From Anaerolineae bacterium (lineage in GTDB: Bacteria > Chloroflexota > Anaerolineae > Anaerolineales > DRMV01), in assembly GCA_011176535.1 (NCBI GenBank), contig DUEP01000009.1, forward strand, positions 1-56,926: a stretch of 56,926 bases of DNA. The letters run 5' to 3'. How positions within the stretch are numbered: the first letter of the stretch is position 1; every line of letters starts with the position of its first letter. The translations under genes and the position numbers were made by a program. The notes under the pieces are model-generated. The model did not search any database and was not told the origin of the DNA. It worked only from the letters and a program-made list of their open reading frames with translations. Below, one piece after another: positions 2,000 to 17,865 of the stretch.

Positions 2000-4900
2000 A
2001 TGCTCAAAAGGTTGGTCAGACTCTTTGGGGGGGATCCCGTCAAACGTACCCTCCAGGCCTATCTTCCTTTGGTCGATCAAATTAACGCCTTAGAAACCAC
2101 CTTTGAAAAAGAATACAGCGACGCAGCCTTGCGGGCCAAAACAGTAGAGTTCCGCCGCCGGCTGGCCCAGGGCGAGACCTTAGACGACCTCCTGCCCGAG
2201 GCCTTCGCCGTGGTCCGCGAAGCATCCAAACGCACCATTGGGTTGCGCCACTATGATGTGCAGATTATCGGTGGCGCAGTGCTGCATCAGGGCAAAGTGG
2301 CCGAGATGAAAACCGGCGAAGGCAAAACGCTGGTGGCCACCTTGCCTCTGTACCTCAACGCCCTCACCCTGAACCCGGAATGGGTCGAACAGGCCCGCGA
2401 GCGGTGGGGCGACGATCCCGAAAAGTGGACCTTCGAACCGCTGGACGACATCCCCGTGGGACGCGGGGTGCATCTGGTGACGGTGAATGATTATTTGGCC
2501 CGCCGCGACGCTCGCTGGATGGCGCCCATCTACGATTTGCTGGGCCTCAGCGTGGGCGTGCTGCAAATGGCCTCGCGCACCGAAAACGGCAAGAAGGCCT
2601 TCCTCGTCGATTTGACGAAAACCTCCCCCCAGGAGGACCAGCACCAGTTGCGCATGGTGCCGCGCCAGGAAGCCTACAAAGCCGACATCGTGTACGGCAC
2701 CAACAGCGAGTTCGGCTTCGATTACCTCCGCGACAACATGGCCATGCGCTGGGAGGACAGGGTGCAGCGCGGGCATCATTACGCCATCATCGACGAGGTG
2801 GACAATGTGCTCATCGATGAGGCCCGCACCCCGCTCATCATCTCCGGCCCTGCCCAGGAAGCCGCCGAGTGGTATGTGCGCATGGCCCAAATCGTGCGCC
2901 GCCTCAAACCGGGCGAGGATGTGGAAATCAACGAACGCGACCGCACCGTCACCCTCACCGAAATCGGCGAGGCCAAGGTCGAAGACGCCCTGGGCATGCC
3001 CCTGCGGGATCCCGAACGACCGGAAGACCTCACCCCCGAGCAGGAGCAAATCTGGGGGTATCTGGAGCAAGCCCTCCGGGCCCAGTTCCTCTTCAAGAAA
3101 AACAAAGATTATATCGTCCAGGGCGGCAAGGTCATCATCGTGGACGAGTTCACCGGCCGTCTGATGCCCGGCCGACGCTGGTCCGACGGCCTGCACCAAG
3201 CCGTGGAAGCCAAGGAGGGGGTGCGCGTCCAGCCGGAGAACATCACCTACGCCACCATCACCATCCAGAACTACTTCCGCATGTACGAAAAACTGGCCGG
3301 TATGACCGGTACGGCCGCCACGGAGGCGGAAGAATTCCATAAAATCTACAACCTGGATGTGATGGTCATCCCCACCAACCTGGAGTACCTGGCCGCCCGG
3401 CCGGATACCGACCTCATCGCCCTGGAAGCCACCGACGAAGAAGGCTACCGCTACACTTACTACGCCGACAAGAACGACCCCGAGAAAAAGCCCCTCTACT
3501 GGAAGCGCAAAGACTACCCTGATGTCATCTACCGCACCGAGGAGGCCAAGTTTCGCGCCATCGCCTGGGAAATCCTGCGCTTCCATGTGCAGGGCCGCCC
3601 CATTTTGGTGGGCACCACCTCGGTGGAAAAATCGGAGCGTCTCTCCCGACGGCTCAACGCGGAAAACCTGCGCCGTCTGGCCTTGATCATGCTCTTGCGC
3701 GACGCCTTCCTGCGGCAGGGGGATCGGGAGGAAGGACGCCAATATCCCGAACTGGAACCGCTGTACCGTCCTCTGGACAAATTGAGCATGGGCGAACTGC
3801 GCAATTACGCCCGCCAATGGGGCATCTCGGCCAACCCCGAAAAAGAGGACAACCTGGAGCGGCTGCGAGACCTGCTGCTGCCCACTCCCACGGAACAAAG
3901 CCGCTGGGAGGAGGTCAAACCCCGGCTCATTCAGGCGCTCCGCGCGGGCATTTCCCATCATGTGCTCAACGCGCGCAAACACGCCGAGGAAAGCCAGATC
4001 ATCGCGGGCGCCGGTGCCTTTGGCGCGGTGACCATCGCCACCAACATGGCCGGTCGCGGTGTGGACATCAAACTGGGCGGCGAACTGGCCGAGGAGGTGC
4101 TCACCGCGGTCAACCGGGTGCTCAAGCGGGCGGGGTACGCCGACCCGTACGACATGCGCCTGGAAGAGCGCTACCAGGCCCTGAAGGAACTCGCTTCTGA
4201 GCAGTACGGCATCTACGAAGCCGAGGTCCGCCATTTTCTGCAGTACATGGACGACATGCGTCGGGTGCGGGAGGTCGGCGGTCTGCATGTCATCGGCTCC
4301 GAACGCCACGAATCGCGGCGTATCGACAACCAGTTGCGCGGTCGCGCCGCCCGCCAGGGGGACCCCGGTTCCTCGCGCTTTTTCCTTTCCCTGGAAGACG
4401 AACTAGTGCGCCTCTTCGGCGGTCAGACTTTGGAAAATGTCATGGCCCGCCTGCAGGTGGACGAACTGACGCCCCTGGAGCACGGGTTGGTCAACCGCCT
4501 CATCGAACAGGCCCAGACCCGGGTGGAGGGCGCCAACTTCGACATGCGCAAACACCTGCTGGAATACGACGATGTGCTCAACCAGCAGCGGGCCAAAATC
4601 TACGCCCAACGGGACCGCGTCTTCCTCAAAGACGACCTCACCGAAGATGTCAACGCCTTGCTGGAGGAGGAAATCCGCCAGCGGGTGGCCGAGGTGGTCG
4701 CCGAGCCGGAGGGCGCCTGGCGCCTGCTGGCCTACCTGGAGCAAATCCAGCCCACCCTTTCAGCCGGGCCGCGCCTCTACCCCTCCTACACCATGTACCT
4801 CCTGCTGGAAGAAATCCCACCGGAGGCCCGCCAGGACGAGGCGCGTTTGCGTCAGGCCCTCCTGGATGTGGCCCGGCGCGCCATGGAAGCCGAACACGGC

Positions 4901-6202
4901 CACCTGCGCACCTGGACCGAAAACCTGATCGCCACTCTGGACGAACACCTGGACAACCTGCTGCGCGAACGGGAGGAGGCGCTGGACACCTTCCTCGAGG
5001 GGTTGTCGCTGAGCGAGTCCTTCCCGCGCCGGGAAGAGGTGCAGCAGGAACTCCAAAGCATCCTGCAAATCCCTGTGGCGCTGAAACCCGCCGAATGGCA
5101 GGCCCTGCAGGAGGACCCCTGGAGCATCAAAGAGGACTTGTTGGCCGAACTGGAAGCCTACGGCGTCGAGCGCAACCTCAAGCGGGCCCTGACCACCTTG
5201 CAGCGGATAAGCGGTACCGAACTGGCCCCTGCTGGAACGCTCTTACGCCGCATGGAAGAGGAGGACCTCACCTGGGGCGAGGTGGTGTTGCAGACCCTGG
5301 ACACCGTCCTGGCGCGGCGTGCCGAGCGGCTCTTCGGCCCCGCCGGGAGCATCCCTGCCGATCTGGACCTGGAACTGAAGCATCTGCTGCGGGAACGCCC
5401 ACCGCTGAGCGCCACGCCGGCCACGGATGCAGAAATCCTGGTGCTGCTCGGTCGCCTGCAAGAAGGCCGGCAAACCACTTTCGACCGCAAGACACATCGG
5501 GCCATCAAAGTGGCCACCACCCGGCTGCGCTACCTTTACCTGGCCGCCACTCTGCTGGATGTCCAGGACGCTGAGGCCGTGGCCGAGGAGGTGCTGGAAC
5601 ACCTGCAGGAGGCCCAAACCTTTCGCCAGGAGGCGCTGGGGGCCGAGGAATGGGCCCGACTCAAAGAGGTGCCCTCCCGCCTGCTACCCCCAAAAACTCA
5701 GCGTGGGCTACGCCAGGCCCTGGGCGACGACACCTTGCAAGCCCACTGGGACACCCCCCTGGGCGTGTTCCCCGAGCCGTTGCACCAGCCCCTGGTGCAG
5801 GAGTTGGGGCGTCAGGTGCTCACCGAAATCTACCGCGCCCTGCTCCTCCACAGCATCACCAACGCCTGGGTGGAGTTCCTGACCCGCATGGAGGCCCTGC
5901 GCGTCTCCATCGGTCTGGAAGCCTACGCCCAGCGGGATCCCCTGGTGCAGTACAAGGCCAAAGCGTTCGAGGAGTACGAACGCCTGATCCGCGAAATCCG
6001 GGCCGGTGTGGTGAATCACCTATTCACCTACCGCCCCGCCGGGGTGCAGATTCAAGCCCCAGGCCGAGGAGAGACGGCCAGCGAAGCGACCCAGACCGAA
6101 GAGCCTGCCCCCGCCTCGGAGGGGAGCAGCGCCCCGGCCCCAACAACGGCCTCTTCCGGTGGCAAGAAAAAGCGTCGCCGACGCCGCCGAAAGAAAAAAT
6201 AA
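2000..6202 (+). CDS. secA: Preprotein translocase ATPase SecA, unusually long
   Basis: SecA is the motor that pushes unfolded preproteins through SecYEG. The Walker A motif MKTGEGKT lies near residue 103, [19 protein letters not shown] near 266, the [12 protein letters not shown] region near 155, and [20 protein letters not shown] near 760. All motor domains are present. At 1400 residues it is far longer than the usual 800-950. Extra sequence includes about 35 residues near 130-155, about 100 residues between the TTSVEKSE and [10 protein letters not shown] motifs (about 550-650), and about 350 residues of mostly helical C-terminal extension. It ends in a Lys/Arg tail and has no C-terminal Cys-rich SEC-C metal motif. 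The start is the ATG at 2000. A DsbA-like gene follows 15 bases after the stop, so the two may be co-transcribed. Confidence 0.97.

Positions 6203-7959: not shown

Positions 7960-7970
<11 letters not shown>
7044..7970 (-). CDS. SAM-dependent methyltransferase with C-terminal zinc ribbon
   Basis: The class I methyltransferase motif [11 protein letters not shown], lies near residue 55, with IRVLHHM (motif III/IV region) downstream. The C-terminus has two CxxC pairs (CPHC near 267, CTAC near 284), a Trm112/YcaR-like zinc ribbon often fused to ubiquinone-type or carbohydrate-acting methyltransferases. The start used is the ATG at 7970, giving 308 residues and overlapping the end of ugd by 11 bases, which suggests translational coupling. 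A longer reading upstream would sit entirely within ugd. As the last gene of the polysaccharide cluster it may methylate a sugar, lipid or precursor, but the substrate is unknown. Confidence 0.8.
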
Positions 7971-9345
<1,375 letters not shown>

Positions 9346-9584: not shown

Positions 9585-11957
9585 CTATCCCTGAGCCTCA
9601 CCTTCCGCTGCGGCCATGGCGCGGTAACGCGGGGGCAACACCCGCGCTGGCGGCCAACGCGGCCCGACAGGCTGGGAAACCGCCGCGCGCACGATGGCCT
9701 GCAACATGAACACATCATAGGCCGCCCAAAACACATTGATCAGGATCCCCACGGCGTCGGTGCGCCAGCCCAACCCCAGGGCCACCAGGCCAAACAAAAT
9801 GCTCAAAAGCAACAGCACCAGCACGGCCAGTTGAGGCACCACCAGGTGGAGGTAGACCCCCTGCCTGCGCTCCTTGGGCGTGACGCGAAACCCCATCCGC
9901 CGCCCCCCGAAGGCGATGACCACGGCCTGGATCCACAACGGGAACAACGCCAGGTTGTACTGCTCTCCGCGCAACGGTTTCATGCCCCAGGCGGCAATCA
10001 TGAACATCAACTGGTTCATGAGCAGGTAAGGCACAATGCGCACCAGGAAATCGCCGGCAAACGAAACCACGGGCGCGATGCCAAAAAGCAAATAAATCGC
10101 CGGGGCCAGCAGATAGACCACACTGGCGAAACCAGAAAAATAACTGTAGATGGTCATGAAGTACTGCAAGCGCTGCCCAAGGGTCAGCCCGGGCAGGGTC
10201 AGGGGGTTGTAATGCAAAAAGACCTGCAAGGTGCCCACCGCCCAGCGCAGGCGTTGTTGCAACACACTGCCCAAATCCTCCGGCGCCAGGCCGTAGGCCA
10301 GAATCTCCGGGTGGAAAACAGACTTCCAACCCAAAGCGTGGAGTTGCAGGGCCGTGGCCATGTCTTCGGTGATGCTCACCGTCTCCAAAGCCTGGATGTC
10401 CAACGCCTCTCCGCTCTCCAAACGCAGGGCCTGGGCCACGGTCTCGTCCAGGCCCAGCGCCTCCATCGGGGGAGCCGCCACCTCGCTAAGGTCATACAGC
10501 AACCCCCACAACCCTTTCTCGATGGCCTGCCCCACCTCGTGGGTCGTCTCGACGGCGACCACGCGGGTGGACGTGGCTGCGGGGCCCAAGGCCCCGCGCA
10601 GGAACTCCAGCAAACTGAAGGGTTCAGTAAACACCTGGAAGATTTTCTCCGGTGCCACCCCTACCAACTGCTGCAATTCGCTCATCGCCGAGAGGTCCTG
10701 ACGCCGGATTTCTTCCTCGAGCTTCGCCTCGGACAACGGCGCTTCGAGCAGGGCGACCACCTCTTCTGGGGTCCCCAGCACCTGTTCCACCGTATCCGCC
10801 TCCACGCCCAGGGCTTCCACCCGCTCCACGGCCCGCTGCTGCTCCAGGGCACCCATGGCCTTCAGGTCGGCGGCGATGCGCTTCAAATCCTCCAGGATGA
10901 TTTCCCGCTGGATATCCTCCACTTCTTCGTTGAAGCGCGCCAAGATAGCCTCCAGCGTCATTTCTCCCTCACGGAGGGCCTGCGAAGCCTCAACAGCAGC
11001 GCGGGAGATTCGCCGGGCGTAGTGGCGAAAACGGCGCGGGATGCGGACATGGCCCATTTGCATCCGCACGGGCAACTCGCTGATGGCCCGAAGAATGCGG
11101 CGCTCGGTTTGCCGCACATACCGCCAGATCCCCAAATGCAGCAACGCCTCTCGCCGCAACACCGCATTGGTGCCAGTAAAGAAGGCGGCGTTCCACCCAT
11201 CCTTTCCTTGCTGAATGGGGCCGTAGAACAGCGGGGCCTGGCTACCAAAGGGGTCTTCCTCGCTCACATTGTAGAAATACTGAGGGGTCTGGACAAAGGC
11301 CACCTTTGGGTCGCGGAAATACCCCAGGGTGCGATCCAGGATTTCAGGCGCAGGCACCTGATCCGCATCCAGAATAAGGATGAACTCCCCCGAGGTGCGC
11401 AGCAGGGCATTGTTGACATTTCCCGCCTTGGCGTGCCGGGGTTTGCCTTCCCACTCCGGACCTCGGGTGATGTACCCCACCCCCAGGGTGGCGCACAGCG
11501 CCCGAAATTCGGGGCGGTCGCCGTCGTCCAGCACATAGGTGCGATGAGGGTAGCGAATGCGCAAAGCCGCCTCCACGGTGAGGCGAACAAGATCCAGCGG
11601 TTCATTGTAGGTGGTGATGAACACATCCACCGTGCGCCCTTCTGGCAGGGGCGGAGGCTGGCGGCGGAAAGTAGGCTTCCACAGGGTCATCACAAAAAGC
11701 AGGGTGCCGATGAAGGAATAGGTCTCCGCGGCCAGCAAAGGCAGGGCAAACCAGGGCGCTTCCCAGTTGATGGAGCGGGTGTAGCGGAAAGAAAAATAAT
11801 ACAACCCCAGGAAAAGGGTGCTCACCGCCACCAACCGGATGACCCACATCCGCAGCCGGAACCGCACATAGGGGTCGTGGGGCAACCAGGGATCCAGCAA
11901 GCGGTTGATCATCCGCTGGAAGCGGTTGTAGCGCAAGAACTCAGTGGACGATGCCAT
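9585..11957 (-). CDS. BcsA-like processive family 2 glycosyltransferase with large catalytic-domain insertion
   Basis: This 790-residue membrane glycosyltransferase resembles the cellulose synthase catalytic subunit. Two N-terminal membrane spans (about 38-95) precede the GT-A domain. Motifs are TTYNEP (115), DDGDRPE (144), ILDADQVPAP (195), FFTGTNAVLRREAL (259-272), SITED (528-532, catalytic base) and QQRLRW (567-572, the QxxRW acceptor motif). Further membrane spans follow. The C-terminus lacks the PilZ c-di-GMP domain of classical BcsA. Between the NAVLRREAL segment and the TED motif, about 250 extra residues (about 277-525) are inserted; these are usually adjacent in the family. The product may be cellulose-like or, given ugd beside it, uronate-containing. 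It overlaps the upstream PAP2 gene by 17 bases. Confidence 0.88.
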   Translation of the reverse strand: MASSTEFLRYNRFQRMINRLLDPWLPHDPYVRFRLRMWVIRLVAVSTLFLGLYYFSFRYTRSINWEAPWFALPLLAAETYSFIGTLLFVMTLWKPTFRRQPPPLPEGRTVDVFITTYNEPLDLVRLTVEAALRIRYPHRTYVLDDGDRPEFRALCATLGVGYITRGPEWEGKPRHAKAGNVNNALLRTSGEFILILDADQVPAPEILDRTLGYFRDPKVAFVQTPQYFYNVSEEDPFGSQAPLFYGPIQQGKDGWNAAFFTGTNAVLRREALLHLGIWRYVRQTERRILRAISELPVRMQMGHVRIPRRFRHYARRISRAAVEASQALREGEMTLEAILARFNEEVEDIQREIILEDLKRIAADLKAMGALEQQRAVERVEALGVEADTVEQVLGTPEEVVALLEAPLSEAKLEEEIRRQDLSAMSELQQLVGVAPEKIFQVFTEPFSLLEFLRGALGPAATSTRVVAVETTHEVGQAIEKGLWGLLYDLSEVAAPPMEALGLDETVAQALRLESGEALDIQALETVSITEDMATALQLHALGWKSVFHPEILAYGLAPEDLGSVLQQRLRWAVGTLQVFLHYNPLTLPGLTLGQRLQYFMTIYSYFSGFASVVYLLAPAIYLLFGIAPVVSFAGDFLVRIVPYLLMNQLMFMIAAWGMKPLRGEQYNLALFPLWIQAVVIAFGGRRMGFRVTPKERRQGVYLHLVVPQLAVLVLLLLSILFGLVALGLGWRTDAVGILINVFWAAYDVFMLQAIVRAAVSQPVGPRWPPARVLPPRYRAMAAAEGEAQG

Positions 11958-12675
11958 AGCCCGTCATCCATTTCATCAATGCGAAGAGGAAGGTGAACTT
12001 CTGGGAAAGGTCGTAGAGGAAGAGGTACCCCACAAAGTAGAACGCCCCGGGGTAGCGATACACCAGAGAAAGCACAAAGTCATAGATGGGGCGCAAAAAG
12101 CGCTCGGCCAGCAGGAACAACCCCAGGCTTCCAACGCCGATGAGTGCCCCGCCCAGCATATCGCTAGGCCAGTGAAACCCCAGCGCAATATGCAAGGCGC
12201 TGAAATATCCCATCAAGGCCAGCATCAACCAGCCGGCGCGTCGCTGAAGCGTCCAGAGCCCCAACGCCAGGGCAAAAAACATCACCGCGTGGTCGCTGGG
12301 AAAAGCGCCCTGGACCGCCAAGCCGGAGGTCACCCTTCGCCAGATTTGCGGTGGGATGGGGATTTGCAAAGAGAAAACGGCAAAAGGTCGCACCCGGGGG
12401 ACCATGCCCTGGAGCACCGACGCGGCGAAGAAACTGGTGATCAACGCGCCAAACACGCTCAACACCCGACGGCGCGCTTCTAAACGGGTGACCCGCGCCG
12501 AAATGGGGATCACCCCCGGATCGCCATAAAACCACATCCAGGTCAGCCCCATGGCCGCGACCATCCAGGGCAGGCGGTCCGAAACAGTCAACGCATGATA
12601 AAACCGGTCGGGGCTTTGCGCTACCCAGCGGTTCAGGACCTGCAGCAGCCATACATCGAGCATCATCCAATTCAT
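11941..12675 (-). CDS. PAP2-family membrane phosphatase (first of two)
   Basis: This 244-residue polytopic membrane protein carries the PAP2 (type 2 phosphatidic acid phosphatase) motifs: a PRVRPF segment near residue 93 (degenerate KxxxxxxRP), GAFPSDHA near 123 (PSGH-like), and HIALGFHWPSDMLGG near 160 (SRxxxxxHxxxD-like, with HW-SD). Such enzymes remove phosphate from lipid phosphates or undecaprenyl diphosphate. The start ATG at 12675 lies 25 bases after the neighbouring PAP2 gene and the end overlaps the BcsA-like gene by 17 bases, so all are one transcription unit. A role in recycling or processing a lipid intermediate of the polysaccharide pathway is inferred. Confidence 0.85.
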   Translation of the reverse strand: MNWMMLDVWLLQVLNRWVAQSPDRFYHALTVSDRLPWMVAAMGLTWMWFYGDPGVIPISARVTRLEARRRVLSVFGALITSFFAASVLQGMVPRVRPFAVFSLQIPIPPQIWRRVTSGLAVQGAFPSDHAVMFFALALGLWTLQRRAGWLMLALMGYFSALHIALGFHWPSDMLGGALIGVGSLGLFLLAERFLRPIYDFVLSLVYRYPGAFYFVGYLFLYDLSQKFTFLFALMKWMTGYGIVH

Positions 12676-12700
12676 AGGTTCCCTCTACCGCCGCCGGGCG

Positions 12701-13432
12701 TCAATGAGGAAAATAAACCCCCAGCCAGGTCGCCAGAAGACCAAAGAACCACGCCATGCGTTGCGAAAGATCCAGCAGGATCAGCAGGCCCAGGGCATAA
12801 GCCCAATGAGGCCGGGCATCCACCTGCATCAACAAGGGGTTCAACAACCAACTCATCTTACGGCGCAAGGCAAAGGCGATGGCCAAGCCCATCATCCCCA
12901 AAGCGAAACCGGCCACCATGTCGGTGGGGTAATGATAGCCCAGGGCCACCCGCAAGGCGCTGAAGAACATCACTCCCAAAAACACCACCCCGCTCCAGCG
13001 CCGCGAGACCAGCCAGACGCCCGCGGTCAGGGCGCCCCAAAAGGCAGCATGGTCGCTGGGGAAGGCCCCATGTTGCTGACGGAACACCTCCACCACCTGC
13101 GCCCAGACCGTCGGGTCAATAGGCGCCTGCAAGGGCATCCAGGTCAACGGCACGGGGCGCGCGGTCCAAAACGCCAGAGGACGCGCCGCCGCGAAGGCCA
13201 GCACGGCACCGATGAGGGTGGTCAGCACCGCCAGACGATGCCGATACACCTCGTCTTCTTCGTCCCACTGCTCCGCCTGCTGCTCCCCCTGGGCAAACCA
13301 CAGGGCCACCAGGATGGCGCTGGCCAGGATCCAGGGGGTCACATCCGAGAGAAACAGCGCCGCATGGAAGTACTGGGGCTTGAGCGCAATGAGGTGATTC
13401 AGCCACAAAACCGCAGACTCATCCCAACCCAT
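12701..13432 (-). CDS. PAP2-family membrane phosphatase (second of two)
   Basis: This 243-residue polytopic protein has the same architecture as its downstream neighbour: N-terminal MxWxE..LLWLN region, a loop with ARPVP near 90, GAFPSDHAAFWGAL near 122, and LRVALGYHYPTDMVAGF near 160. His-Asp residues of the third motif are kept; the first motif (normally KxxxxxxRP) is weak. The pair looks like a tandem duplication that diverged. It starts 18 bases after the BcsB-like stop. Function as a lipid phosphate phosphatase is inferred; one of the two may have lost activity because the early Lys/Arg motif is poorly kept. Confidence 0.83.
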   Translation of the reverse strand: MGWDESAVLWLNHLIALKPQYFHAALFLSDVTPWILASAILVALWFAQGEQQAEQWDEEDEVYRHRLAVLTTLIGAVLAFAAARPLAFWTARPVPLTWMPLQAPIDPTVWAQVVEVFRQQHGAFPSDHAAFWGALTAGVWLVSRRWSGVVFLGVMFFSALRVALGYHYPTDMVAGFALGMMGLAIAFALRRKMSWLLNPLLMQVDARPHWAYALGLLILLDLSQRMAWFFGLLATWLGVYFPH

Positions 13433-13450: not shown

Positions 13451-15661
13451 TCATTCGAACACTTCTTCCTCGGCCTCTTCCTTGCGTCCAAACCAGCGTC
13501 GGCCGAAGAACACAATGGCCCAAACCGCCAGCGCCGTAACCACGATGGCGGCGGTGATCACCATCCAGGGCTTGGGCAATGGGAGCAACGGCTCCCGTTT
13601 CACAACCACCGGTTTGAATTCCGGCGACTGCTCCACCGCGCGGTAGATAACCTGCGTGCGGCCATTGTCGCGCACCAGAGCGACCGAGCCGGGCTCGTCC
13701 ACCGGCGGGACCTGCTTCAGGAGCGCTTCCAGGGCGCGTTGGGCACCCGCCGAGGTGGCTCCAAAAGCCAGCAAGGCCACCCGGTCTTTGTTCCAGGGCG
13801 AGGGACCTTCGCGCAACAGTCCCTGTCCGGGGTCTTGCAAGGCCTGATAAAGCCCTTCCTCGCCGCGATAGCCCGGCACAGCGCCCATTTTCTCCAAAGC
13901 CGCCTGCAGCAAGGGGTGCTCCTCCTTGGCCCCGAAGAGCACCACATGCGCCTCAACCAGCCGGGGGTCGTCGGCCTTCACCTGCGCCACCAGCCGAAAG
14001 CCCAGGTCAGGGTGACCATAGAGCCCCAGCAGCGCGGACAGGGCCAGTCCCTGTTCGATTTGTTGCGCAACGGGTTGGGGCGGCAAAATCAACAGGGTGG
14101 GTTCTATGGCATCCGTGCGCACAAAGGGATACGGGAAAGCCTGCAAATCGGGCAGGGAATCGTAAACATGAGGCACATAAAAGGTGGTATCCGCCTGGAG
14201 AATGGTCCAGGCCGCGTCGGGATGCACCACCTCACAATCCTGTTCCCGGAGATAGTTGCCCACCTCCATGCGCACGATGAGCCTCGATGGGACACGGCCC
14301 TGCAAATCGCGGTTCAGGCGGGCGACAGGCAAATCGAAGGCCATCTCATGTTGATCAAAATCTGGCCCGGTGCGCACGCTGCCCACCGGCACATCGTTGA
14401 TGTACACCGTGATGTACGATTCGCGGGAGGTAAGGGCCGGGCTGGTCTGGTAGCGCAAGATGAGTTGGCTTCCCTTATCCCACACCCAGCCGGGGGGGCG
14501 ATAGAAGTAAAAGTACTCGTTGTGCACCCCCGTCCCTTTGACCTTGCGATCCGTCTCGCCCAACTGGGCAAAAGTGGTCATATCGGTGGACCAGGGCGGC
14601 GGCACGGGGGCCACCTCGGGAAGCGGGTCGCCCACAAACTGGAAAGTGCCCTGCAGCGCGGCAAAGGTGCGCGACCGGGCGAAAACCTCTCCAGCCCGCC
14701 TGACCCCTTCCTGCGTAGCGCCACTGACCACCAACACATAGCGGGCCGCGTTCCAGGGGGCCATCAGGAGTTGGATCACGCCGTGCCCGGCCGGCGCCAC
14801 CTGCCCGGCCGCGTCCACAAAACCGCTCCCTTTCCAGGGCGCCGGCAAACGAGCGCCGTTTTCCTGCAGCCAGGGCAATCGCTCCGGTGGCCCCACAAAG
14901 ATCACCTGGGCATCCGGCACATTCTGAGGGTCGAACGCCGAGGCCAGGATAACCTGGAAGGCCGGTTGGGTGTTGGCCGCCTGGGCCAGACGGGCGGCCA
15001 ACCATCCTGCGGTGGTCAACTCTGTGTCGGTCGGTTCATCAGGCAAGACAAACACCAGGGGCGGCGCGGGAGCGTACTCCTCGGCCCCCTGCACCACCAG
15101 ATCCAACGCCAACTGGCCCAGGTCGGGTTTGGGTTCGCGCAACGCGGGGGTGATGGTCAACGCCGTGCTCGGCGCGATTTCCACCCATTGCGCCGGGTTG
15201 TTCGTCTCCTCACACACTTCGTCGGTCACCCGCAGGTAGCCCTGAAAGCGCAAGGAAAGGCCCTTGCGCCCCAGCCAGTTAGCCGGGATGGGAATCTGCA
15301 CCGTGTGCCAGGTCTCATCGGCCTCCAGCGAGATGCTGGCCACCTCCAACCCGTTGGCGATCACCGTCAAGGTGGAACGGGGGCGCAGAAGCGAGGAGGC
15401 GCGATAGGTCAGCGAGAGTTCGGCCGGAGAGGAAAAGGCCCAATCCGTTCGAAAGGGGATCCACACCCGAACCGTGCCGTACATCCCCCGGAGGGCCAAA
15501 GGCTCGCGATACCCCACTTGCTCCAGGGTCACCGTCTGCTCGCCCGGTGCCGGGGTGCGCTCCAACCTTGGGGCGGCCTGGGCATCGGGGAGCCCCCCGA
15601 ATAGAGCCAGCCACCCCAACAGCGCGACAAGCACACTCCTTACCCACAAGTGCTGGCGCAT
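13451..15661 (-). CDS. BcsB-like cellulose synthase regulatory/accessory subunit
   Basis: The 736-residue product starts at the ATG at 15661, preceded by AGAAAGGAG. It has a signal peptide (hydrophobic segment about 8-22 ending in DAQA), a large extracytoplasmic region with two BcsB-type carbohydrate-binding/flavodoxin-like repeats, and one C-terminal membrane span (about 700-722) followed by an acidic cytoplasmic tail. In BcsA-BcsB pairs this tail-anchored subunit guides the emerging glucan and is needed for synthase activity. An upstream in-frame start would add about 23 residues but has no ribosome site and would spoil the signal peptide. It is preceded by a STAS gene 65 bases upstream and followed by two PAP2 genes. 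Confidence 0.82.
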   Translation of the reverse strand: MRQHLWVRSVLVALLGWLALFGGLPDAQAAPRLERTPAPGEQTVTLEQVGYREPLALRGMYGTVRVWIPFRTDWAFSSPAELSLTYRASSLLRPRSTLTVIANGLEVASISLEADETWHTVQIPIPANWLGRKGLSLRFQGYLRVTDEVCEETNNPAQWVEIAPSTALTITPALREPKPDLGQLALDLVVQGAEEYAPAPPLVFVLPDEPTDTELTTAGWLAARLAQAANTQPAFQVILASAFDPQNVPDAQVIFVGPPERLPWLQENGARLPAPWKGSGFVDAAGQVAPAGHGVIQLLMAPWNAARYVLVVSGATQEGVRRAGEVFARSRTFAALQGTFQFVGDPLPEVAPVPPPWSTDMTTFAQLGETDRKVKGTGVHNEYFYFYRPPGWVWDKGSQLILRYQTSPALTSRESYITVYINDVPVGSVRTGPDFDQHEMAFDLPVARLNRDLQGRVPSRLIVRMEVGNYLREQDCEVVHPDAAWTILQADTTFYVPHVYDSLPDLQAFPYPFVRTDAIEPTLLILPPQPVAQQIEQGLALSALLGLYGHPDLGFRLVAQVKADDPRLVEAHVVLFGAKEEHPLLQAALEKMGAVPGYRGEEGLYQALQDPGQGLLREGPSPWNKDRVALLAFGATSAGAQRALEALLKQVPPVDEPGSVALVRDNGRTQVIYRAVEQSPEFKPVVVKREPLLPLPKPWMVITAAIVVTALAVWAIVFFGRRWFGRKEEAEEEVFE

Positions 15662-15726
15662 GTGTTGTCTCCTTTCTGCATGACGCGGCACACGCCGATC
15701 TCCCCCCATCTGTCCCCTGGTAGGCC

Positions 15727-16080
15727 TCAAGCCTTAACCAAAGATTCGATGGCTTCTTCCACCGAAGGATAGACGCGAAACACGCGATCCAACAAAGTCA
15801 ATTCAAGCGCCCGCCGGACCTGACCGCCCACCCGGGCGAGAACCAGCGTGCCGTCTTGTTCACGCGCCGCCCGCAAACCCGAGACGAAGAGGCTCAACAC
15901 GGTGGAGTCGATGAAGGTCACTTCTCCCATATCCACGACGAGTAGCGGTGTATGCTCGGTGGTCAATTGCTCCAGCGTTTTGCGCAATTTGTCCAGGTTA
16001 CCCGCGTGCCATTTACCTTTCAGGTGCACCACGGCCACCCCCAACATGGGGCGCTCAACCCGGATGGTGAATTGGGCCAT
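15727..16080 (-). CDS. STAS-domain anti-sigma factor antagonist (SpoIIAA/RsbV-like)
   Basis: This 117-residue single-domain protein has the STAS fold pattern. VVDMGEVTFIDSTVLSLFV near residue 50-68 holds the DS motif whose Ser is phosphorylated in SpoIIAA/RsbV proteins, followed by LVLARVGGQVRRALELTLLD. The ATG at 16080 is chosen because a GGAGG lies 9 bases upstream; an ATG three codons earlier would sit directly on that site. STAS antagonists release a sigma factor or other target when dephosphorylated. No partner kinase or sigma factor is in the window. It heads the polysaccharide gene set, which suggests a regulatory link, but this is inference. Confidence 0.85.
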   Translation of the reverse strand: MAQFTIRVERPMLGVAVVHLKGKWHAGNLDKLRKTLEQLTTEHTPLLVVDMGEVTFIDSTVLSLFVSGLRAAREQDGTLVLARVGGQVRRALELTLLDRVFRVYPSVEEAIESLVKA

Positions 16081-16126
16081 ACCCTCCATCCTCCAAGGCA
16101 AGAGAAGAAGCGGCCATGTAGCCAAA

Positions 16127-16135
16127 ATTATACCA
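16127..16135 (-). promoter_or_regulatory. Extended -10 promoter for the STAS-led operon
   Basis: On the minus strand TGGTATAAT ends with TATAAT at 16132-16127, 46 bases upstream of the STAS start. No convincing -35 box is present at the expected distance, so this would rely on the extended -10. It could drive the whole STAS-bcsB-PAP2-PAP2-bcsA(-ugd-methyltransferase) run. Confidence 0.5.
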
Positions 16136-16240
16136 GCAACCCGGCGCCGGCCTAGTGTTGCCCCGTGGGAACGCCCCCTTGAGGCTCCTGCGCGAGGCCC
16201 TGGCGGCGTTCGATGGCGAGGCCACTTTGTCCCCAAACAC

Positions 16241-16268
16241 TTGACATCACCCCGTATCCTATTACAAT
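16241..16268 (+). promoter_or_regulatory. Promoter for speD-speE
   Basis: TTGACA (16241-16246), 16-base spacer, TACAAT (16263-16268). A transcript starting near 16275 would have an untranslated leader of about 175 bases before speD. Confidence 0.6.
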
Positions 16269-16269
16269 T

Positions 16270-16450
16270 GCCCCACGCGCGGCAGGCACAAGCCGTGCGT
16301 CCCACCGCACGGTCTGCAACGCCCACGTGCGGTGTCGTCTTAGGGGATGACCGCCGGAGACGGTGGGTCCCCCTCGGCCGTCTGCCTGGCAGACTGGCTT
16401 CTCTTCCCCTGCCCCTGGGGGGCACAAACCCTGTGCAAAGGAGGTTCTTT
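16270..16450 (+). promoter_or_regulatory. Long structured 5' leader of speD
   Basis: The leader contains several local hairpins: CCGTGCG-TCCCAC-CGCACGG (16299-16318), a CACCG/CGGTG-type stem around 16350-16366, GTCTGCC-T-GGCAGAC (16379-16393), and GCACA-AACCC-TGTGC (16424-16438) directly before the AAGGAGG ribosome site at 16440-16446. The last hairpin could control access to the ribosome site. I do not recognise a known riboswitch class. Bases 16081-16240, before the promoter, show nothing beyond the opposite-strand promoter. Confidence 0.4.
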
Positions 16451-16906
16451 ATGGAGAAGGTTGTGGCTTCTCTGGGGGACCTTCGGGGGACGGCCGAGCG
16501 TAACGCTCTTGGGCGTCACCTGATTGCAGAAATTTGGACCGAGCACCCCCACCTGCTGGACGATTTGGAACACCTGAAGGACGCCGTCAAAACCGCCTGT
16601 CGTGCAGGCAACCTGACGGTGGTGGATGTGTTGGCCCATAAGTTTGCGCCCCATGGGGCCACCCTCATCGCGTTGCTTATGGAATCCCACCTCTCCATTC
16701 ACACCTGGCCAGAGCACGGCTACGCCGCGGTGGATGTGTTCGCCTGTGCGGGAGATCCTGAGCGCGCGCTGGAGGTGCTGGCCCAGGAATTACAGGCCCA
16801 TCGTGTGGAAATCGTGGATCTGGACCGGGGCCTCCTGCCGGAAGGCGAAACGCCCGTCTGCCGCTTTGAGCCCCACAGTGAAGTACCCACCAGTTTAGCC
16901 ATATGA
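16451..16906 (+). CDS. speD: S-adenosylmethionine decarboxylase proenzyme (SpeD/SpeH type)
   Basis: The enzyme makes decarboxylated SAM, the aminopropyl donor for polyamines. The 151-residue proenzyme has the self-cleavage site in MESHLSIHTWPEHGYAAVD: cleavage before Ser79 (after Glu78) yields the pyruvoyl group. GRHLIAEIW near residue 21 and VFACAG near 95 (catalytic Cys) are family features. The start ATG at 16451 has a strong AAAGGAGG site; the frame is open much further upstream, but only as non-coding leader. The stop overlaps the start of speE by four bases (ATGA). Confidence 0.95.
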   Translation: MEKVVASLGDLRGTAERNALGRHLIAEIWTEHPHLLDDLEHLKDAVKTACRAGNLTVVDVLAHKFAPHGATLIALLMESHLSIHTWPEHGYAAVDVFACAGDPERALEVLAQELQAHRVEIVDLDRGLLPEGETPVCRFEPHSEVPTSLAI

Positions 16907-17865
16907 ATTTCTCTGGCGCAGTGGCGGAAAGCGGCTTCCCTCACCGTTGGGTGCTCACCTTTGTCGAGCACTGGCTGTACCGAGGGAAGTCGCCTTTCCA
17001 ACAAATCGACATCGGCGAGGCCGGCCCTTTAGGCCGGTGCCTCTTTTTAGACGGCTGGCTGCAACTGGCCGAAGCGGACGAACACATTTACCACGAACAC
17101 CTGGTGCTCCCGGCGCTGCTGGCCCATCCTCATCCCGAACGGGTGCTGGTGTTGGGCGGCGGGGATGGGCTGGCCGTGCGAGAGGCGTTGCGGCACCGCG
17201 CGGTGCGCCAGGTGACCATGGTAGACATCGACGAGCAGGTAGTCACCGCCTGCCGCACCCACCTAGGGTCGCTCCAACAAGGCGCGCTGGATGATCCCCG
17301 GGTGCAGGTGCTCATCAAAGACGCGCGCCGCTACCTGCGTCAAATCCCGGCACGCTTCGATGTCGTGCTGGTCGATCTGGTGGACTTTACTCCGGATAGC
17401 CTCGCGCTCTACGCCGACATCCTGGACCACCTTCCGCGCGTGCTGCAACCCGGAGGCATCGTGGTGGGCCATGGGCCGGATCCCGGCCCACCCCACTTCA
17501 CGGGGCTGTATCTGGTGGCCTTCCTGGGCCAACGCTTCCCTGCCACGGCGTGGTTCACCGGTTTCGTGGGCAGTTTTGGCGAACCATGGACCTTTGTCTT
17601 TGCCGCGGCCCAACCTCTTTGGGCCGCGCTTTCACCCCGCGCGTGGCAGGAGCGGGCCAAAGCGTTGGTCACCCCCCCGCGCTCCTTCCTCCCCGAAAAC
17701 CTGCCCGCTATGCTGCGCCACCCTTCCGCCGAGGAGGAGCGCATCCGGCGCTTCGGCCAGCGTCCCATCACCACCCTTCCTGAACCCGCCTGGCATGCCC
17801 GGGTGTTGCATGCTGGGGCCGCCCAACGGCTTTTCACGGCACTCCGCCCCCCTGAGGAGACCTGA
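16903..17865 (+). CDS. speE: Spermidine synthase-like aminopropyltransferase
   Basis: This 320-residue enzyme of the SpeE family transfers an aminopropyl group from decarboxylated SAM. The N-terminal strand domain is followed by HIYHEHLVLPAL, LVLGGGDGLAVREAL (GGGDG near 85-89, nucleotide binding), VDIDEQVV and KDARRYL. The usual DxxDP-GP gate-keeping segment reads VDLVDFTPDSLALY, a somewhat altered active-site motif, so the amine acceptor (putrescine, agmatine or a longer amine) is not fixed by sequence reading. The C-terminus is about 35 residues longer than in typical members. It is translationally coupled to speD through the ATGA overlap. Confidence 0.9.
   Translation: MNFSGAVAESGFPHRWVLTFVEHWLYRGKSPFQQIDIGEAGPLGRCLFLDGWLQLAEADEHIYHEHLVLPALLAHPHPERVLVLGGGDGLAVREALRHRAVRQVTMVDIDEQVVTACRTHLGSLQQGALDDPRVQVLIKDARRYLRQIPARFDVVLVDLVDFTPDSLALYADILDHLPRVLQPGGIVVGHGPDPGPPHFTGLYLVAFLGQRFPATAWFTGFVGSFGEPWTFVFAAAQPLWAALSPRAWQERAKALVTPPRSFLPENLPAMLRHPSAEEERIRRFGQRPITTLPEPAWHARVLHAGAAQRLFTALRPPEET

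Follow-up and report, generated by a model that had tools for sequence, protein, structure and literature searches.

A helical domain inserted ahead of the TED motif of PilZ-less BcsA-type synthases, a candidate docking site for a STAS partner switch

Control by c-di-GMP through PilZ is the textbook picture for processive GT2 synthases, and in BcsA the gating loop, with its motif FxVTxK, is the loop that PilZ controls. The stretch of DNA analysed here (56,926 nucleotides of an Anaerolineae bacterium, contig DUEP01000009.1, referred to throughout as the window) encodes a synthase of this type with a long insertion beside its catalytic base, which raises the question of what the insertion is and through which partner such an enzyme could be controlled. 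The synthase and the positions that define the insertion are as follows.

9585..11957, reverse strand: BcsA-type processive GT2 synthase with an inserted domain and without PilZ (open reading frame; Pfam Cellulose_synt and Glycos_transf_2 above cut-off)
10383..11129, reverse strand: the insertion, residues 277-525 (split alignment and motif spacing; no Pfam or NCBIfam family above cut-off)
10362..10370, reverse strand: TED motif, residues 530-532, capping the finger helix (58-sequence alignment and AlphaFold2)

The synthase frame encodes 790 residues with no internal stops, and was assigned to the BcsA type on its GT2 motifs (D, DxD, TED, QxxRW) and channel transmembrane helices. Superposition of its model on BcsA 9b8v using VIA-align gave a Z of 30.7 over 480 aligned residues, at an rmsd of 2.5. 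In an alignment of 58 sequences, DDG 144-146, DAD 197-199, TED 530-532, and Q568, R571 and W572 of QxxRW were intact and invariant, as the initial annotation had stated for the catalytic motifs, and gating-loop residues F690, V692, T693 and K695 of FxVTxK were invariant as well. Like BcsA (7lby, 9b8v, 4hg6), the enzyme has a GT2 domain, a transmembrane channel and all catalytic motifs, and a gene for the partner subunit BcsB lies in the window; unlike BcsA, it has no PilZ, carries extra residues before TED, and scores 353.1 bits against TIGR03030 (UDP-forming cellulose synthase equivalog), under the 699.1 cut-off of that model. No PilZ match was obtained for the window synthase at E up to 1, its chain ending 100 residues after F690, and PilZ was found in 0 of 3 insert-bearing enzymes scanned (the window, L006 and L013) versus 6 of 8 insert-free relatives scanned.

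An insertion of about 250 residues inside the glycosyltransferase catalytic domain had been read from the letters alone, and this reading was confirmed by alignment and by motif spacing. Using phmmer, the window protein matched E. coli BcsA (7lby) as two pieces, 41-276 and 525-761, whose ends correspond to residues 447 and 450 of E. coli BcsA and are thus near-adjacent in the BcsA chain, and a family profile run against E. coli and Rhodobacter BcsA was split at the same point. Spacing from the GTNAVLRR-type motif to TED was 268 in the window synthase, about 246 residues more than the 21-22 measured for insert-free enzymes of the same phylum (16 of 18 relatives, the remaining two not being matched by the motif pattern), and residues 277-525 map to 11129..10383, in agreement with the initial annotation. 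The insertion was present in 80 of 80 full-length relatives aligned with the window (9 partial matches were left out of this alignment), drawn from Chloroflexota, Actinomycetota, Spirochaetota and Thermomicrobiota, and measured 148-194 residues in these, versus 250 in the window by the same measure. Because relatives from other genomes carry an alignable insertion in the same place and frame, a frame error or misassembly was ruled out. The initial annotation had also allowed that the insertion might be common to all BcsA homologues of the family; this held throughout its own clade and failed for the sister BcsA-like enzymes sampled.

Relatives were collected by one scan of 84,980 species genomes, and the 80 best of the 380 that it returned were retained; since two of the six search peptides lie in the insertion, this set leans towards insert-bearing forms. 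A search with TIGR03030 is unbiased with respect to the insertion: among 251 genomes of the window's phylum 73 matched, the split match of the insert-bearing form was seen in 10 of these 73 among the matches listed, the window's own genome included, and the highest-scoring matches were without the insertion. In a tree calculated for 29 insert-bearing and 18 insert-free enzymes, with the insertion excluded and without L093 and L102 (absent from the alignment), a branch supported at 98/99 sets the insert-bearing enzymes apart. Insert-bearing forms were rare elsewhere, with at least 2 of 296 genomes drawn from the actinobacterial phylum of L013, and at least 1 of 149 drawn from the spirochaete phylum of L035, the centre genome being counted in both cases. 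Given the branch support and this rarity, the insertion marks one patchily distributed clade, and since it occurs throughout that clade and is absent from the sister BcsA-like enzymes sampled, it is a shared derived domain rather than a private oddity. As judged from sequence comparison, it is a family hallmark of one BcsA-type clade.

Alignment and structure prediction divided the insertion into parts of different character.

10812..11153, reverse strand: shared core, predicted helices 269-300, 308-330 and 335-382 forming a three-helix bundle (AlphaFold2, ten-residue block means 80-94)
10518..10805, reverse strand: lineage-specific extension, residues about 385-480, mostly of low confidence (alignment and AlphaFold2)
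10404..10409, reverse strand: invariant Glu517-Ala518 at the end of the insertion, ahead of TED (alignments of 58 and of 42 sequences)

The initial annotation had treated the 249 residues as one unit; the shared domain comprises only about 150 of them, to which the window adds a longer middle. Structure prediction, which it had suggested as a check, gave a confident three-helix bundle in the core: the full window protein was modelled with a mean pLDDT of 81.5 (AlphaFold2, 58-row alignment), most of 385-480 being of low confidence, with pLDDT below 50 at residues 428-434 and 438-477, and the core of a Chloroflexus relative, folded alone, reached a mean pLDDT of 85.4, with long helices at 2-38, 41-66 and 71-103 and block means mostly at 90-97. 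Helix 269-300 is predicted to run on from the conserved catalytic-domain helix that follows NAVLRR, and the end of the insertion is predicted to lead into the TED-capped finger helix. As the first helix begins inside the conserved RREAL segment, the bundle appears, in these models, to be rigidly joined to the catalytic domain. About 100 residues of the middle are lineage-specific overall, about 50 of which are missing from the nearest relatives, L003 and L004, and identity to L003 is 50% in the insertion versus 84% and 72% in the flanks, indicating that the insertion evolves faster.

A search with the insertion for independent known domains, also suggested at the outset, recognised neither a family nor a fold. 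The best weak Pfam matches, to PDC10_C and DALR_1, were rejected, as they look like chance matches of helical sequence. A profile of the insertion gave only weak helical matches among PDB sequences (LidA scoring best, at E 0.004), the core model gave 0 Foldseek matches at E up to 0.001, and VIA-align with the core returned many tied helical bundles at Z below 10, with no fold kin singled out. Since the helical bundle is a common arrangement, these ties speak neither for nor against kinship.

The synthase lies in an operon ordered STAS, BcsB, PAP2, PAP2, synthase, UDP-glucose dehydrogenase, methyltransferase, whose annotated members besides the synthase are listed below.

15727..16092, reverse strand: STAS-domain protein (RsbV-like) at the operon head, likely start near 16092, site motif DSTVL (Pfam STAS 63.8 bits; TIGR00377 above cut-off)
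13451..15730, reverse strand: BcsB-like periplasmic subunit (PF03170, 184.7 bits)
12701..13432, reverse strand: PAP2-family phosphatase (profile search)
11941..12675, reverse strand: second PAP2-family phosphatase (profile search)
7960..9345, reverse strand: UDP-glucose 6-dehydrogenase-like enzyme (profile searches)

The PAP2 pair between BcsB and synthase (11941-13432, reverse strand) was also found in L003 and L004. The UDP-glucose 6-dehydrogenase-like gene directly follows the synthase; glucuronic acid could be a constituent of the polymer.

A STAS gene was likewise found beside most synthases with the insertion. Of the insert-bearing loci for which 1.5 kb or more of downstream sequence was available (78), 64 carry a STAS gene on the same strand no more than 400 bp downstream. 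Local HMMs found STAS, an RsbW-like HATPase_c_2 kinase and a SpoIIE-type phosphatase together in 63 of the 80 insert-bearing loci, the others having STAS and kinase (5), STAS only (1), phosphatase only (2) or none of the three (9), and all three families were confirmed by Pfam on representatives from several phyla, in which the phosphatases carry receiver, GGDEF, GAF or PAS domains. None of the three was found in the flanks of 20 insert-free loci; flanks were 6 kb in the insert-bearing set versus mostly 1.5 kb in the insert-free set, and the 400-bp adjacency count fits both. Insert-bearing synthases thus co-occur with genes of an Rsb switch. The association was also seen in a draw from the window's phylum, where 8 of 10 loci with the insertion have STAS (one of the remaining two stops at a contig edge), and in L181, which was retrieved by the insertion alone and has all three switch genes. 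The phospho-site motif DSSGL was kept in 67 of 69 related STAS genes, the exceptions being one DSTGL and one DGGSA. In the Chloroflexus islandicus locus (L006:1029-3854), the phosphatase gene also bears Hpt, three receiver domains and a GGDEF domain, through which c-di-GMP may still feed in.

The window holds a reduced form of this set. Its STAS is 37% identical to that of L003, and in its site, DSTVL, the serine is kept and the following positions are changed versus DSSGL. Immediately before STAS, L003 and L004 have a phosphatase-kinase fusion (Pfam on L003), where the window has frames at 15848-17865 that, by eye, resemble spermidine genes. A search of the window's genome (listed as 97.42% complete) with the L003 fusion found no counterpart, its 18 HATPase_c_2 places included no recognised RsbW-like kinase, the best four being sensor histidine kinases, and its best SpoIIE-type match was a stand-alone 302-residue frame away from the locus. 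With kinase and phosphatase unrecognised in this lineage, and the site changed to DSTVL, the STAS protein there may be a fixed subunit or may answer to another enzyme.

Seven Arthrobacter loci (L026, L046, L053, L056, L060, L061 and L071) keep the insertion with no STAS in the 14-kb locus. In a copy check covering six of these seven genomes (L046 was left out), the synthase was single-copy in five, and the sixth has two copies, both without STAS nearby. In L060 (7995-10598), the gene that follows encodes an OpgC-type acyltransferase fused to a weakly GH26-like stretch.

Tree-distance correlations were calculated after near-identical loci were removed (59 to 49). Distances correlated more highly between STAS and the insertion than between STAS and the catalytic domain, and the partial r was 0.43 for the insertion and STAS and 0.41 for the insertion and the phosphatase. 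As the phosphatase signal is equally strong, the positive STAS signal is not specific, and the correlation was dropped as proof of STAS-insertion coevolution.

An insertion predicted to fold thus lies between the donor-site segment and the TED-capped finger helix of an enzyme without PilZ, and in relatives the gene is linked to an Rsb switch; most simply, this is explained if the insertion is the route by which the switch acts on the synthase. That the insertion is a regulatory docking domain, by which a STAS partner switch replaces c-di-GMP/PilZ control in a distinct PilZ-less BcsA-type clade, is given an even chance; that the output of an Rsb partner switch is here the synthase itself rather than a sigma factor, by way of a helical domain inserted beside the catalytic base, falls just short of that. 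The three-helix bundle, with the NAVLRR segment on one side and the TED-capped finger helix on the other, would most probably have as its ligand the unphosphorylated STAS protein encoded in the synthase operon. Where relatives have all three switch genes, the RsbW-like kinase would phosphorylate STAS at the DSSGL serine, turning it off, and the SpoIIE-type phosphatase, with its response-receiver, GAF or PAS sensor domains, would take the phosphate off again; STAS, once free, would dock on the bundle and thereby release the finger helix and gating loop, or position them, for chain elongation. Activation by unphosphorylated STAS as the direction of control is assumed by analogy, and we infer both STAS binding to the insertion and the link from the insertion to the finger helix and gating loop. 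The initial annotation had proposed a regulatory domain replacing PilZ, or one binding a cytosolic partner; the absence of PilZ and the genetic linkage of a candidate STAS/Rsb partner support this in part, regulation and binding being what we infer from them.

Precedents exist for a STAS protein on a helical part of an enzyme. MlaB binds the helical subdomain of MlaF, an ABC ATPase (PMC7367683), and SiaC binds the stalk of SiaD, a diguanylate cyclase, phosphorylation preventing the binding (PMC8457831); STAS would sit on the insertion in a like manner, with the difference that those targets are an ABC ATPase and a diguanylate cyclase. These precedents, together with the retention of STAS in the window without a recognised RsbW, make STAS a better candidate ligand than the kinase. 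Anti-sigma kinases (RsbW/SpoIIAB) bind helical targets, so classical partner switching, in which an RsbW-like kinase binds the bundle as it would a sigma factor and holds the synthase off until STAS frees it by sequestering the kinase, would suit a helical insertion, and RsbW-type kinases are separate neighbours in many loci. This arrangement is nevertheless considered unlikely, given the window, and given that the kinase domain sits inside a large phosphatase fusion in L003, L004 and L035. Known partner switches mostly control sigma factors, and the switch genes might act on transcription through a sigma factor in trans and merely share the operon, the insertion having an unrelated or purely structural role. 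The STAS-less loci that keep the insertion agree with this; against it, the linkage is specific to insert-bearing synthases across several phyla, and no sigma factor was seen among the few neighbours scanned, and the reading is accorded a low likelihood.

The insertion could instead be an assembly element that holds synthase units together, the Rsb genes acting elsewhere. The comparison is with the class-specific region (CSR) of plant CesA, which sits between YVGTG and VTED (529-531 and 673-676 in poplar CesA8; PMC10592267), is mostly disordered, and serves inter-isoform, trimer-trimer contact (PMC12077881). Split alignments place the window insertion at the equivalent point, from NAVLRR/YVGTG to VTED. 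No sequence relation was detected, however, as there was no plant CesA chain among 28 matches of the insertion profile at E up to 10 (weak evidence, the CSR being variable), the bacterial core is predicted to be folded where the CSR is largely disordered, and the STAS linkage would be left unexplained; an assembly role is regarded as improbable. The additional residues of the window synthase could also have no function and stem from degenerate or neutral expansion. This is consistent with the lowest-confidence residues of the extension, 428-434 and 438-477, and with an extension not fully common to the nearest relatives, but the core is kept in all 80 aligned relatives and Glu517-Ala518 is invariant, which leaves this explanation with very little probability.

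With respect to the RsbU/RsbV/RsbW switch itself, the relatives are alike in having a SpoIIE phosphatase, a STAS protein with DSSGL and a HATPase_c_2 kinase, and unlike in that these are linked to a polysaccharide synthase; the window locus has the STAS gene only. If the switch does act on the synthase itself, STAS proteins would have an enzyme as a direct target, outside transcription, and PilZ control would have a counterpart independent of c-di-GMP, with polymer output set by the sensor domains on the phosphatase. In a review, the direct targets of some STAS switches tied to polysaccharide or biofilm (SypA, HmpV) are described as unknown, and an Anabaena protein is said to join STAS and a glycosyltransferase (PMC8256260); insert-bearing synthases offer a concrete candidate kind of target for such switches. 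The Sinorhizobium mixed-linkage glucan synthase BgsA differs from the window enzyme in being reported as c-di-GMP-responsive, by way of its own novel binding domain (PMC5567048). Within the titles and abstract beginnings of open-licence literature, no STAS/Rsb switch on a BcsA-type synthase was found. A PilZ-less clade with a predicted bundle in the slot of the plant CSR, and with linked Rsb-type genes, means that a second logic of control can be put to the test in culturable actinobacteria and in Chloroflexus, and the STAS-less Arthrobacter loci provide a natural test of whether the insertion needs the switch. Elsewhere in the window, the frame at 2000-6202 on the forward strand presumably encodes a SecA-like protein, which at 1400 residues is longer than usual and whose sequence suggests extra segments.
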